DNA of 64,000 bases from Flavobacteriia bacterium. GTDB lineage: Bacteria; Bacteroidota; Bacteroidia; Flavobacteriales_D; Crocinitomicaceae. The DNA lies in the NCBI GenBank assembly GCA_026391005.1, contig JAPLEV010000049.1, forward strand, positions 62,001 to 126,000. Direction: 5' to 3'. The position numbers were made by a program, and so were the translations under genes. Of this stretch, positions 53,182 to 62,816 are shown piece after piece; position 1 is the stretch's first letter; the number at the start of each line of letters is the position of its first letter. A model generated the notes under the pieces. The model made no database searches, was not told where the DNA came from, and saw only the letters and a list, made by a program, of their open reading frames with translations.

Positions 53182-53256
53182 GGAGGTTGTAGCTCAGTTG
53201 GTTAGAGCGTCGGTTTGTGGTACCGAAGGTCGCGGGTTCGAGACCCGTCTCCCTCC
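53182..53256 (+). tRNA. tRNA-His (GTG), with two acceptor-stem mismatches
   Basis: D arm GCTC/GAGC, anticodon arm TCGGT-TTGTGGT-ACCGA with anticodon GTG, and T arm GCGGG-TTCGAGA-CCCGT are all present. G at 53182 and C at 53256 form the extra G-1:C73 pair that marks histidine tRNAs. In the acceptor stem the 5' side GAGGTTG meets CTCCCTC, leaving pairs 5:68 (T/C) and 6:67 (T/T) unmatched, while all other pairs are good. CCA is not encoded in full (CCA appears only as C-C-A overlapping C73). A terminator follows at 53258. Confidence 0.85.
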
Positions 53257-53257
53257 C

Positions 53258-53281
53258 AAAGTCCCCTAGTGGGACTTTTTT
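53258..53281 (+). terminator. Terminator of tRNA-His
   Basis: Arms AAAGTCCC / GGGACTTT with a short loop, then a T-run. A second identical copy lies at 53355-53378. Confidence 0.85.
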
Positions 53282-53297
53282 ATTTTACATTGTTCAA

Positions 53298-53378
53298 GTC
53301 GCGGGTTCGATCCCGAGACTTCTCCCGAAACTTCTCCCGAAACTTCGGGATCCCAAAGTCCCCTAGTGGGACTTTTTT
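53298..53378 (+). repeat. Partial duplicate of the tRNA-His 3' end and terminator
   Basis: GTCGCGGGTTCGA at 53298-53310 equals 53229-53241 of the tRNA-His T arm. After it comes a degenerate stretch with a 12-bp unit repeated in tandem (ACTTCTCCCGAA, about 53318-53341), then a 28-bp segment (53351-53378) identical to 53254-53281, including the terminator hairpin. There is no 5' half of a tRNA, so this is a remnant and not a second gene. Confidence 0.8.
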
Positions 53379-53424
53379 CTTCCAAATATTCGATCACTGA
53401 CTAGGCTTAAAACACTAGATTACT

Positions 53425-56323: not shown

Positions 56324-56397
56324 GGTTTGGTAGTTCAGTTGGTTAGAATACATGCCTGTCACGCATGGGGTCGCGGGTTCGAGTCCCGTCCAGACCG
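56324..56397 (+). tRNA. tRNA-Asp (GTC)
   Basis: Acceptor GGTTTGG / CCAGACC (one G-U pair), D arm with GTTC/GAAT variant, anticodon arm CATGC-CTGTCAC-GCATG with anticodon GTC, T arm GCGGG/CCCGT around TTCGAGT, discriminator G. CCA is not encoded. Its last 10 bases begin the 157-bp repeat described next. Confidence 0.93.
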
Positions 56398-56544
56398 CAC
56401 AGAACGTTAAAGCGTTAAAAAGAAAAGCCTCTATGGCCCCGACGCTATCGGTCGGGATTCGGACATTCCGAAACGGAATCGTCGGAACTGGAGGATTAGA
56501 AAACCCTAGGATGTATCAAATATCTTAGGGTTTTTGTTTTTTAG
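56388..56544 (+). repeat. 157-bp direct repeat, copy A (tRNA-Asp 3' end, structured trailer, terminator)
   Basis: This stretch starts within the tRNA-Asp acceptor arm (GTCCAGACC) and ends after the terminator (arms at 56504-56530, then T-run). It recurs 1545 bp downstream at 57933-58089 with three substitutions (56406, 56442, 56509). The trailer folds into hairpins CCCGAC/GTCGGG and ATTCCG/CGGAAT inside a CCTC/GAGG stem. The remaining ~180 bp up to the lipoprotein start at 56724 show nothing further. Confidence 0.9.
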
Positions 56545-56723
56545 GGCTTTTTGATTTCTTTGCTAACCTAGAACAAAACCCAAATGTCACTTACGAACTT
56601 TTTTTAATCAATCTCTTGTTAGTTAAAGCAAAAACAGTAACTTAGCTTTAGAATATCCCTGTCCTAAATAAGGGAGGAATTATAGTATTATAGAATTATT
56701 CATTATATTTGATAAAAAAAATC

Positions 56724-57311
56724 ATGCTAAAATCTACAATTTTTATTTTGTCTGCAGTGTTATTAATCCTATCATCTTGCAATTCTTCACAAAAGAATTC
56801 TTCTGATTTAGTTTATGTTTCAAAAAATATTGATGGGGCAATTGTGAAAAATGAGAATAATGTTTCAATTGCTTTGACTGATATTAGGGTTTTTCAAATT
56901 GAGAATCCAGATTTAAACCAAGCGCACAAAGAAAAATTACAAAATACAGTGGATAAAATTGTTTTAATGGGCAATGAAGAAAAGAAAATTCAAGATTTCT
57001 TGGACAAAGAAATAGTAAATCTTAAAGATCAATCATCACCAGATTTAGATAAAATAAAAAGTTTTTCAAGTGAATTCCTAAAATCTATTTCTTCTGTTAT
57101 TAAAAATGATCAAGAAACGAAGTTTGCATTGGTTGAGATTCAATCTACATTGAATTTTTCAAACTATAAGTTAAACGGCACAAAAATAGAAAATACACTT
57201 GCTTTAAAATCAATTAAGTTAAGTGTTTCTAACGCTTATCAAATGGCTGCTTTTCTTGTAAAATCAATGGTGAGGCTTTCAACATCACAGTCGCTGGGGA
57301 TTCCTCAATAA
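56724..57311 (+). CDS. Small putative lipoprotein of unknown function
   Basis: A 195-residue protein from the ATG at 56724; the longer frame begins with a TTG at 56709. Residues 1-17 form a lipoprotein signal (MLKSTIFILSAVLLILSSC). The rest is helical and Lys/Asn/Ser-rich, without a domain I recognise. It lies between copy A and copy C of the tRNA-Asp repeats, in DNA with no core genes, and may be accessory. Confidence 0.65.
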   Translation: MLKSTIFILSAVLLILSSCNSSQKNSSDLVYVSKNIDGAIVKNENNVSIALTDIRVFQIENPDLNQAHKEKLQNTVDKIVLMGNEEKKIQDFLDKEIVNLKDQSSPDLDKIKSFSSEFLKSISSVIKNDQETKFALVEIQSTLNFSNYKLNGTKIENTLALKSIKLSVSNAYQMAAFLVKSMVRLSTSQSLGIPQ

Positions 57312-57623
57312 ATAAAGTTGAAATGAGAAAAGTTCCAGATGTTCTCATGTAATTATCTTCTGATTCAAATGTCAACGCATTTTCTCGTAAAGTTCTAATA
57401 TTACGTGTTAAAGCTTATAATCTTGATCACAAATAGTTACCTAATCTAACCAAGTAGCTATATAAAAGATAATTTGAATTGATTTTCCTTGATATCTTCT
57501 AAATTTTTAAGTGGTAAATTGTATACATAAGCAATATTCATCATGCCAAAGTTCACCATAATTTCAGACCCTAGGATGTATCAAACATCTTAGGGTTTTT
57601 GTTTTTAGTTTAAGCCATTCTCT
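57312..57623. other. Intergenic region between lipoprotein and GIY-YIG genes
   Basis: AT-rich. On the minus strand a 33-codon open frame (57559-57458) starts MVNFGMMNIAYVYNL; it has no support as a gene and may be a remnant. The right third holds repeat copy C (57569-57621). Confidence 0.5.
57569..57621 (+). repeat. Direct repeat, copy C (terminator plus 3' flank)
   Basis: 53 bp: terminator hairpin CCCTAGGATG...CATCTTAGGG, T-run, then TTTAAGCCATTCT. The same unit, 54 bp with two substitutions and one T indel, is at 58049-58102. The two copies frame the GIY-YIG gene plus repeat copy B. The stem base-pair at the loop is G-C here and G-U in the other copies. Confidence 0.85.
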
Positions 57624-57884
57624 ATGGAAGTATATACAGTTTATATTATTCGTAATCCCCAAAAAGTTTATTACAAAGGCTTCACAAGCGATGTTTTGCG
57701 TCGATTGGAAGAACATAATTCTTCAATAGGAAAATACACTTCTGAAAAAGGGCCATGGACTTTGGTATTCAAACATTCATTTATTTCAAAGTCGGATGCA
57801 TTGAAGTATGAACGGATGCTTAAACGTCAAAATCACAAATACCTGGATTGGTTAATTGCATCTGAAAAAAATGAAATAAGCTAG
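57624..57884 (+). CDS. GIY-YIG family nuclease (YhbQ/UPF0213-like)
   Basis: An 86-residue single-domain protein. The GIY-YIG core is represented by VYTVYIIRN and YYKGFTSD (~4-24), followed by the catalytic Arg in LRRLEEHN (~26-33) and the metal-binding Glu in ALKYERMLKRQ (~65-75); WTLVFKHSF lies between. Relatives are numerous in Bacteroidota and many genomes carry several copies. The gene begins 3 bp after repeat copy C and ends 48 bp before copy B, so it is enclosed by direct repeats of a tRNA-Asp terminator. Confidence 0.88.
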   Translation: MEVYTVYIIRNPQKVYYKGFTSDVLRRLEEHNSSIGKYTSEKGPWTLVFKHSFISKSDALKYERMLKRQNHKYLDWLIASEKNEIS

Positions 57885-57899
57885 ATTTTAAGCAAGTGT

Positions 57900-57945
57900 C
57901 CATGGGGACGTCTCGGCTGAGCCGAGAAGTCTGTCCAGACCGCAC
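57900..57945 (+). pseudogene. tRNA-Asp 3'-end remnant with replaced T arm
   Basis: CCATGGGGACG aligns with GCATGGGGTCG of tRNA-Asp, and GTCCAGACCGCACAG from 57933 is identical to the tRNA-Asp acceptor 3' side. Between them the T arm is replaced by a perfect hairpin TCTCGGCT/AGCCGAGA followed by AGTCT. No 5' half is present. Confidence 0.65.
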
Positions 57946-58089
57946 AGAACATTAAAGCGTTAAAAAGAAAAGCCTCTATGGCCCCGGCGCTATCGGTCGG
58001 GATTCGGACATTCCGAAACGGAATCGTCGGAACTGGAGGATTAGAAAACCCTAAGATGTATCAAATATCTTAGGGTTTTTGTTTTTTAG
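57933..58089 (+). repeat. 157-bp direct repeat, copy B
   Basis: 154 of 157 bases equal copy A (56388-56544). Two of the three changes keep base-pairing: A to G at 57987 turns A-U into G-U in the CCCGAC/GTCGGG stem, and G to A at 58054 turns G-U into A-U in the terminator stem. It is followed by TTTAAGCCATTCT as in copy C. The gap on to the gene at 58214 shows nothing else. Confidence 0.9.
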
Positions 58090-58213
58090 TTTAAGCCATT
58101 CTTTATTTTATCTAAATAGATTTAGTGTTTTTTAATTGTGTAACCATATAAAATACAAAAGTTTAAAAGCCATTGAATTGAAATCAATTATCTTCTAAAA
58201 ACACACATTAATT

Positions 58214-61772: not shown

Positions 61773-62816
61773 ATGAAAAAGATAATTATAATTTGTGCAA
61801 CAATATTTATGACAGCAAGTGTCTTCGCTCAAGCGCCTCAAAAAATTAGCTATCAAGCTGTGGTTCGTAACAGTAGTAATGCATTAATAACATCTGCATC
61901 AGTAGGTATACAAATAAGTATATTGCAAGGTTCTGCAGCTGGAACAGCTGTTTATGTAGAAACGCAAACGCCAAGTACCAACACCAATGGCTTGGTAAGT
62001 ATAGAAATCGGAGGAGGAACAGTTGTATCTGGTAATTTTTCCACTATCAACTGGGCCAATGGTCCTTACTTCATTAAAACCGAAACCGACCCAACAGGCG
62101 GCACTGCTTATACAATAGTTGGCACAAACGAATTAATGAGTGTGCCTTATGCTTTGTTTAGTGCTAATGGAACACCTGGTCCGGCAGGCCCTCAGGGCCC
62201 AGCGGGAACCAATGGAACGAACGGCGCTCAAGGTCCTATCGGAGCAACCGGTCCAGCAGGGGCCCAAGGTCCAACGGGCGCAACAGGTCCGGCAGGGGCC
62301 CAAGGACCTCAAGGATTGCCAGGAAGTGGTGGTTTTACCCATTATATCGGCGAACTCTTTGGCGGTGGTATTGTGATCTCAGTTTGGAAAGAAAATGGAG
62401 TAGAGAAAGGGTTAATTGCATCTTTGGTTGATTTAACCACTTCTGCAAATTATAGCAATATTCAAACAACAATCATTGGACCTACTGCTCAAAGTCCATT
62501 TGATGGACAAACAAATACCACCGCTGTAGTCAATCAGGGGGCTACGGTAGGCGCATCTTATTTATGCAATAATTATTCATCCGGTGGATTCAATGATTGG
62601 TATTTGCCCGCTATTTGGGAGCTCAACCAATGTTACAACGCAGCATTCATTGTAAATACTGTATTAGGTGCAACAAATGGCTTTAAGTTATCCTATTACT
62701 GGAGCTCTACAGAAAGTAGTGGTTCCAATGCATGGTGCCATAATTTTAGCGGCGGTACGTCGGTCTTTGACAGTAAATTATTTGCGTATAGTGTTCGGGC
62801 CGTACGGAGAATTTAA
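61773..62816 (+). CDS. Secreted protein with collagen-like repeats and DUF1566 domain
   Basis: A 347-residue protein. Signal peptide (~1-19); residues ~20-132 match the N-terminal domain of the product at 59786; residues ~133-187 are about 18 Gly-X-Y triplets of collagen type ([23 protein letters not shown]); residues ~190-347 are a DUF1566-type domain ([56 protein letters not shown]). Collagen-like stretches form trimeric stalks in bacterial surface proteins. It shares the operon with the short T9SS protein. Confidence 0.85.
62169..62334 (+). repeat. Collagen-like Gly-X-Y coding repeat
   Basis: Tandem 9-bp units (GGN-CCN-GCN and variants) with an imperfect 36-bp higher-order repeat (GCAACAGGTCCGGCAGGGGC type). 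It codes for about 18 Gly-X-Y triplets and creates a GC-rich island in otherwise AT-rich DNA. Confidence 0.75.

Follow-up and report, generated by a model that had tools for sequence, protein, structure and literature searches.

According to the available part of the report on SegB (PMC13096335), this protein of phages T4 and T6 is a free-standing GIY-YIG homing endonuclease that is encoded in a tRNA cluster, cuts within tRNA genes and has the motif RAWTSGAAC. Its nuclease activity is required for the tandem amplification of a unit composed of tRNA-Tyr and segB. By our own reading, the motif on the opposite strand resembles a T-arm. The units described here resemble SegB in having a GIY-YIG gene beside tRNA genes and in forming tandem arrays. 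However, SegB belongs to phages, whereas the present units are chromosomal and their protein is single-domain; palindrome-remodelled pseudo-tRNAs are not described in that part of the SegB report. The mORFs of fungal mitochondria, known from Allomyces atp6 and from Glomus atp6, atp9, cox2 and nad3 in the available part of the source (PMC3630166), also resemble the present units, in that a host gene with a carried end is followed by an endonuclease gene and the displaced native end. They differ in residing in mitochondrial protein genes, the atp6 example encodes a LAGLIDADG enzyme, and the same part of the source describes no junction palindrome. REP/RAYT systems, as far as the available parts of two reports go (PMC12306157, PMC3733652), are similar in having short palindromes around the gene of a small DNA-processing enzyme, but the RAYT enzyme is of the HUH/tyrosine type.

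Among the open-access matches listed, none from the bacterial literature combined GIY-YIG with RAYT/REP, none tied GIY-YIG genes to Bacteroidota chromosomal tRNA genes or REP palindromes (which is not proof of absence), and none gave a role for single-domain GIY-YIG proteins of the present type. The original prediction for the DNA analysed here had called its putative element novel in type, a phrase that needs qualifying because SegB and the mORFs are close precedents.

The GIY-YIG unit behind tRNA-Asp

The window, a stretch of 64,000 nucleotides, comes from a draft genome of 2.64 Mb (G000:C19; genomes are denoted G and loci L). The features of the tRNA-Asp locus are listed in Table 1. It had been predicted that a 53-bp repeat frames a GIY-YIG nuclease gene and a 157-bp duplicate of the tRNA-Asp 3' end, and the sequence comparison bore this out. 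The segment 57568-57621 (54 nt) recurs at 58048-58102 (55 nt) with two substitutions and one indel. The segment 57933-58089 is 98.1% identical to 56388-56544 and contains the final 11 nt of tRNA-Asp, the trailer and the terminator. The ORF between the terminator copies matches PF01541 with 52.7 bits (cut-off, 22.6; E 5.4e-14). The predicted absence of an integrase or transposase held as well, within the region from 53.9 to 62.8 kb, where Pfam matched neither in the eight further ORFs scanned.

Table 1. Features of the tRNA-Asp locus in the window
Feature	Position	Strand	Basis or remark
Intact tRNA-Asp (GTC), host gene of the unit	56324..56398	+	ARAGORN; Rfam tRNA
Copy A, trailer and terminator	56399..56540	+	Followed by the words AGGGCTTTTTGATTTCTTT, common to the GIY-less G098 locus
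Palindromic insert of ~50 bp in the trailer	56438..56487	+	Not in G021; second instance in copy C, 57983-58032
Stretch of ~1 kb separating copy A from the GIY unit	56541..57567	+	Contains ORF 56709-57311
Terminator copy B and GIY leader	57568..57621	+	Sequence comparison
GIY-YIG nuclease gene, 86 aa	57624..57884	+	Intact ORF; Pfam
Pseudo-tRNA-Asp 3' part, CATGGGG ... GTCCAGACCGC	57901..57943	+	Sequence; same layout in G021 and G096
Palindrome TCTCGGCTGAGCCGAGA replacing the T-stem 5' strand and T-loop	57911..57927	+	Sequence; likewise in G021 and G096
Copy C, 157 bp: tRNA-Asp 3' end, trailer, terminator	57933..58089	+	Alignment
Terminator copy C and leftover GIY leader, no gene behind	58048..58106	+	Sequence

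The 53-bp unit is made up of the terminator and the GIY leader (TAGTTTAAGCCATTCT). Copy A, which lies behind the intact tRNA, has no leader. We considered whether the 53-bp unit is a target-site duplication and rejected this reading, because the same terminator and leader precede the GIY genes of relatives and the leader is missing from copy A. The 53-bp unit is instead the edge of a repeating unit. The downstream copy extends further into tRNA-Asp, as CATGGGG is kept at 57901-57907. The palindrome that follows may represent a junction or a cut site. G021 and G096 carry the same T-arm replacement behind the GIY gene, with one palindrome base different. The original prediction had also proposed that the nuclease gene and the copy of the tRNA end were inserted at the terminator. 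The unit itself stood, but the terminator could not be upheld as the insertion site since the junctions lie inside tRNA arms; the terminator copies are explained by the terminator travelling along with the duplicated tRNA end.

The alignment with G021 is interrupted at 56437/56488 and 57982/58033, the edges of the palindromic inserts in the trailers. In addition, G021 lacks, between terminator and GIY gene, the stretch of ~1 kb at 56541-57567, whose ORF has no Pfam match. Given that the GIY unit of the window stands 1 kb past copy A, the window layout is a rearranged one; its GIY gene is 1.2 kb from its tRNA. Copies A and C (98% identical) are too alike to tell a carried foreign end from a displaced native end.

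Two further observations were made in the window. Behind a tRNA-His gene (53183-53257) stands GTCGCGGGTTCGA (53298-53310), and its terminator occurs a second time at 53351-53378, with CCCGA/TCGGG repeats between these two. This region (53183-53379) is a GIY-less pseudo-tRNA scar. The ORF at 61773-62816 encodes collagen triple-helix repeats and an Lcl_C domain.

The GIY-YIG protein

Residues Y17, G19, R27 and E63 were unchanged in all 21 alignment rows. The AF2/AlphaFold model (pLDDT 89.5) consists of one domain, and neither Pfam nor this model revealed a separate DNA-binding domain in the 86-aa protein. The nearest solved structures, by profile and by fold, were those of UPF0213 proteins (1zg2 and 1ywl, BH0048 and EF2693) and SLX1. 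The profile, which found both, did not retrieve I-TevI among its PDB matches. I-TevI and SegB have a separate C-terminal DNA-binding domain, and SLX1 acts together with SLX4. We know of no tRNA-linked repeats for UPF0213 or SLX1 nucleases. The window protein falls outside the two-domain architecture of I-TevI and SegB, though it may be similar in action. Cutting of hairpins by structure selectivity would suit both its relatives and its sites.

The dN/dS of the window gene against G096 and G021 was 0.16-0.22, and that among intact copies was 0.13-0.22, indicating that the GIY gene is under purifying selection. A defence system was discarded as a candidate because the PADLOC matches were weak (E 0.003 for the window protein and 1.6e-4 for L026). 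A phage origin was likewise rejected: the 16 matching phage records (Rhizobium, 10; Listeria, 5; uncultured phage, 1) were all below 60% identity, and those listed ranged from 36 to 43%. The single matching phage region that was inspected had no tRNA annotation, and a scan of viral contigs confirmed no relative of the window GIY.

GIY-YIG genes in the same genome and genus

Genome G000 has seven GIY-YIG matches. Two belong to open frames which, at 616 and 470 aa, have by our reading the size of UvrC. Three of the other five lie behind a tRNA, namely tRNA-Asp (window), tRNA-Met (L006) and tRNA-Phe (L007). Thus, apart from the window, there are two GIY-YIG paralogues directly behind tRNAs, as the original prediction had suggested looking for. 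That of tRNA-Phe is truncated; that of tRNA-Met has a downstream repeat of trailer and terminator, which reaches the contig end. A GIY gene was found within 1.5 kb of 3 of the 30 tRNAs of G000, and a strict cognate copy at one (tRNA-Met). This strict test registers neither the scar at tRNA-His nor the copy in the window, with its 11 nt of tRNA.

The near named relatives of the window GIY are mostly Flavobacteriales MAGs. With the tRNA-Asp stretch as query, matches were found in 78 of 86 genomes, and 50 loci were mapped. The arrangement differs among these relatives. An intact GIY of the window type was present in G000, G021 and G096, and a truncated GIY followed the tRNA-Asp trailer in G087, G099, G105 and G066. 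An empty-like site was also found: in G098, the words that stand after copy A of the window come after tRNA-Asp, its trailer and its terminator, and the stretch examined contains no GIY. The checks suggested with the original prediction thus mostly turned out in its favour. The intact tRNA-Asp has the same sequence in the GIY-bearing genomes and in the GIY-less G098, and no recoding that would protect it was seen; hence nothing shields tRNA-Asp from the cut proposed below. An isolate of Flavobacterium amniphilum (L155) has the order tRNA-Asp, GIY, tRNA-Asp.

The isolated trailer-terminator-GIY pieces in G087, G099, G105 and G066 suggested that the trailer had transposed elsewhere, a reading that we set aside. 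The better one is that an island entered the 3' end of tRNA-Asp or, in the case of G105, that the contig ends at the tRNA. In each of G087 and G099, one contig carries tRNA-Asp and another the trailer-GIY piece, the latter behind island-like sequence, which suggests that integrative elements have used the same tRNA end. The tRNA-Asp gene seems to be a hot spot of integration in the genus of the window. At L106/L132 (G087) and L107/L145 (G099), island-like DNA splits the tRNA-Asp 3' end from the trailer.

Linkage to tRNA genes across relatives and the class

The window protein matched 31 of 60 genomes at 61 match places, tandem copies being counted separately. A same-strand tRNA lay within 300 bp of 28 of these (25 upstream, 5 downstream, some both; the window's own gene scored as a miss), and an antisense tRNA within 300 bp of none. 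The tRNA density gives a chance expectation of 0.18% per 300 bp upstream. Across the class, 92 of 119 genomes matched and 27 did not when the query was alignment A1, whose 21 members are tRNA-linked so that the search is biased to tRNA linkage. A same-strand tRNA within 300 bp was present at 75 of 89 class loci (86 distinct; 64 upstream, 12 downstream), and an antisense one was present at a single locus. Thirteen distinct class loci had no intact tRNA within 450 bp. A clear tRNA fragment was near L178, L185, L196, L202 and L241 and a weak one near L199 and L215, and the GIY gene of L246 lay between REP-like arrays.

Of 73 loci with a tRNA, 53 had a partial copy of this tRNA on the far side of the GIY gene, compared with 3.7% for a non-cognate control in which ten tRNAs of different isotype were tried at each locus; the cognate copy was absent in the other 20. 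The duplicated host-gene end on both sides of an endonuclease gene, characteristic of mORFs, was therefore found at these 53 loci. Intact, truncated and empty-like alleles at the home locus, as for a SegB-type element, were found too at tRNA-Asp, with the tRNA as the presumed target. There were two architectures, tRNA-GIY-3' copy (62) and 5' copy-GIY-tRNA (11; class II), and many tRNA copies had no 5' acceptor strand. Tandem arrays were found at L187 (10 units with a period of 457 bp, nine of them identical) and L188 (5 units). The window unit is one member of a large tRNA-bound family in the sampled class, probably Bacteroidia. The observation of repeats and nuclease gene is confirmed, and its scope is wider than was first claimed.

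Related arrangements were noted at a few places. At L248 (G224), a palindrome-bearing tRNA-Cys 5' piece directly precedes the intact tRNA-Cys, and no GIY gene intervenes. L265 and L266 (G127) are tandem tRNA-like pieces (Lys-like, Pro 3' part and Asp 5' part) with a period of 81-90 bp and palindromes in some units.

Phylogeny of the GIY proteins

A FastTree tree was built from 143 GIY proteins over 82 columns, with 61 of its 136 inner branches unresolved. On the 104 tRNA-linked rows, tRNA isotype required 36 changes and host family 80. When the non-tRNA rows were grouped in, 52 changes were needed against a shuffled mean of 95.5, and none of 200 shuffles was as low. Many GIY genes away from tRNAs fell into two clades of their own, of 14 and 8 rows. 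The nuclease follows the tRNA beside which its gene sits. The isotype clades fit homing to one tRNA and, equally, vertical inheritance at one tRNA.

Palindromes and junctions in the tRNA arms

In many copies, a perfect palindrome stood in place of part of a tRNA arm, often bounded by TC...GA. Counting strict palindromes (arm of at least 6, loop of 3-9), we found 32 in 5,018 bp of tRNA copies, at 27 of the 53 loci, compared with 15 in 90,257 bp of the flanks of the same loci and 1 in the intact tRNAs (5,599 bp). The flanks of all class loci contained 29 in 140,812 bp against 26 expected, and we rejected the reading of the palindromes as dispersed noise since these flanks are at chance level. 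Further loci had double hairpins or palindromes of different arm length. By a looser count, 63 of 73 loci had a palindrome joined on one side or both, several of these being terminators or AT-rich stems. Palindromes joined on two sides were found at 38 loci, at least one of which (L232) is merely a T-arm.

The junctions fell at base-exact positions that recurred within clades. For Val, the junction ran from 28 to 46 at L165, L174, L206, L208 and L220 and from 28 to 45 at L191; for Asn, from 25 to 36 at L173, L180, L197, L210 and L234, with a T-loop junction from 59 to 63 at L182 and L223. The Asp junction ran from 38 to 51 (L171, L176), that of Met from 36-38 to 47-49 (L195, L212, L224, L230) and that of Leu from 63 to 69 (L235, L239), and the Arg junction lay between 22 and 23 with nothing lost (L190). 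The Val and Asn sets each came from several host families. The replaced arm was the anticodon arm in several clades and the D- or T-arm in others. Within a clade the sequence of the palindrome differed and its position in the tRNA was constant. The junctions thus lie in the tRNA arms and not in the terminator.

Discussion

The recurrence of this arrangement at many tRNA genes of relatives points to a family of selfish genes on tRNA genes. We propose, and give about an even chance to, a homing-like chromosomal unit with a free-standing endonuclease specialised on one tRNA gene. The usual unit comprises a tRNA, its terminator, a small GIY-YIG gene and a partial copy of that tRNA, an arm of which is often replaced by a palindrome. 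The nuclease, which has a single domain and is related to UPF0213 and to the structure-selective SLX1 enzymes, would break a tRNA gene in a hairpin arm, and a unit-bearing copy would serve as the template for repair of the break. The recipient tRNA would regain its 3' half from the unit, followed by the terminator and the nuclease gene, and the old 3' half would be left downstream; alternatively, the unit would be amplified in tandem. Because the tRNA is kept whole, the unit would be able to persist. The palindrome, whose position is fixed in nuclease clades, would mark the junction and possibly the cut. Old units would decay to truncated genes and pseudo-tRNAs, and the class II units, with a 5' tRNA copy, the nuclease and the intact tRNA, would be the mirror case. 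This mechanism is plausible, and the GIY unit may be mobile and spread between genomes by such repair-driven copying.

The adjacency to tRNAs (28 of 61 and 75 of 89), the cognate copies (53 of 73) and the fixed junctions across host families favour homing, as do the excess of palindromes in the copies over flanks and intact tRNAs, the lower number of changes for isotype than for host family in the GIY tree, the presence, truncation and absence of the gene inside one genus, the arrays, the purifying selection and the precedents of SegB and the mORFs. Against it are the single 86-aa domain with UPF0213 and SLX1 rather than I-TevI or SegB as nearest structures, the unprotected tRNA-Asp, the fit of the isotype clades with vertical inheritance on a tree of few columns and many unresolved branches, the bias of the class query to tRNA linkage, the 20 of 73 loci without a copy, the strict palindrome in just 27 of 53 copies and the distance of 1 kb between the window unit and its tRNA.

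Another explanation is that the GIY-YIG enzyme acts as RAYTs do and mobilises short REP-like palindromes into hairpin loops of tRNA arms, terminators and other repeats, the tRNA genes being the richest hairpin targets and the pseudo-tRNAs a by-product. Of 119 genomes, 71 contain the palindrome CCCGATNNNNATCGGG, with up to 75 copies per genome, and its reversed control is almost absent. Its count rises with the GIY count (rho 0.42, P 1.5e-6), but this correlation ignores phylogeny and includes the palindromes inside GIY loci. The hairpins that enclose 18 dispersed copies are longer than those of permuted flanks (stems averaging 4.89 against 4.00; P 0.002), although these copies come from three genomes. 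GIY loci without an intact tRNA nearby share flank repeats in 14 of 28 cases, with 3.31 palindromes per kb near the gene and 0.94 per kb far from it. These were 29 hand-picked loci, among them five of the 13 class loci without a tRNA; L042 gave no GIY and L037 was left out, and 3 of the 14 (L021, L024 and L090) are tRNA-trailer or pseudo-tRNA cases. The two GIY clades that are mostly not tRNA-linked and the palindromic insert within the trailer hairpin of the window also fit. However, the flanks of class loci hold palindromes at chance level, G000 has no copy of CCCGATNNNNATCGGG, the one pattern tried, and the palindrome varies within a clade whose tRNA position is fixed. The enzyme of the window is a GIY-YIG protein, not the HUH/tyrosine transposase of a REP/RAYT system. 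We regard this explanation as rather unlikely, with perhaps one chance in a handful or slightly better. At L001, L002, L246, L041 and L096, non-tRNA GIY-YIG genes were observed amid REP-like repeat arrays, some on both sides.

If the GIY gene were an old resident with a cell function at tRNA loci, ordinary recombination would duplicate tRNA ends in tandem and the spare copies would decay. Vertical inheritance fits the isotype clades, purifying selection fits an old resident, and unequal crossing-over could yield identical array units. Yet the gene is patchy and truncated within one genus and matchless in 27 of 119 class genomes, and decay predicts neither that different host families share a junction base nor that palindromes lie far above the flank and tRNA controls, which makes slippage with vertical inheritance improbable. 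It is very unlikely that the GIY gene is cargo or a scar of tyrosine-integrase elements attaching at tRNA 3' ends. By our own reading, the separate contigs of tRNA-Asp and trailer-GIY in G087 and G099, the latter behind island-like sequence, would agree with such elements, but a PF00589 match lay within 5 kb of 1 of the 33 GIY sites listed in nine genomes and was a fragment, class II units copy the 5' end of the tRNA, and the tRNA copies have remodelled arms. An RNA target, with an isotype-specific tRNA nuclease and a pseudo-tRNA as decoy or resistant copy, would account for the isotype-specific GIY clades and for the anticodon arm replaced in several of them. The nearest structures, however, are UPF0213 proteins and the SLX1 DNA nucleases, many copies lack the 5' acceptor strand, other clades have the D- or T-arm replaced, and the PADLOC matches mentioned above were weak. 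We consider it highly improbable.

A broader form of the homing-like proposal would join it to the REP-like repeats. The units would be a new class of mobile DNA in which a structure-selective, hairpin-recognising GIY-YIG nuclease swaps its own palindrome for a tRNA arm, a spare tRNA end keeps the host gene whole, and the same enzymes spread REP-like palindromes into other hairpin loops, as a GIY-YIG counterpart of RAYT/REP. We put this forward tentatively and hold it to be doubtful.

If the homing-like proposal is true, tRNA genes across a whole bacterial class would harbour hidden, isotype-specialised selfish genes, and the pseudo-tRNAs, palindromes and tandem arrays at tRNA loci would be accounted for. 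The enzyme family would gain predicted, clade-specific cut sites. The units would then provide a bacterial parallel to the fungal mORFs and a chromosomal parallel to the tRNA amplification driven by SegB.
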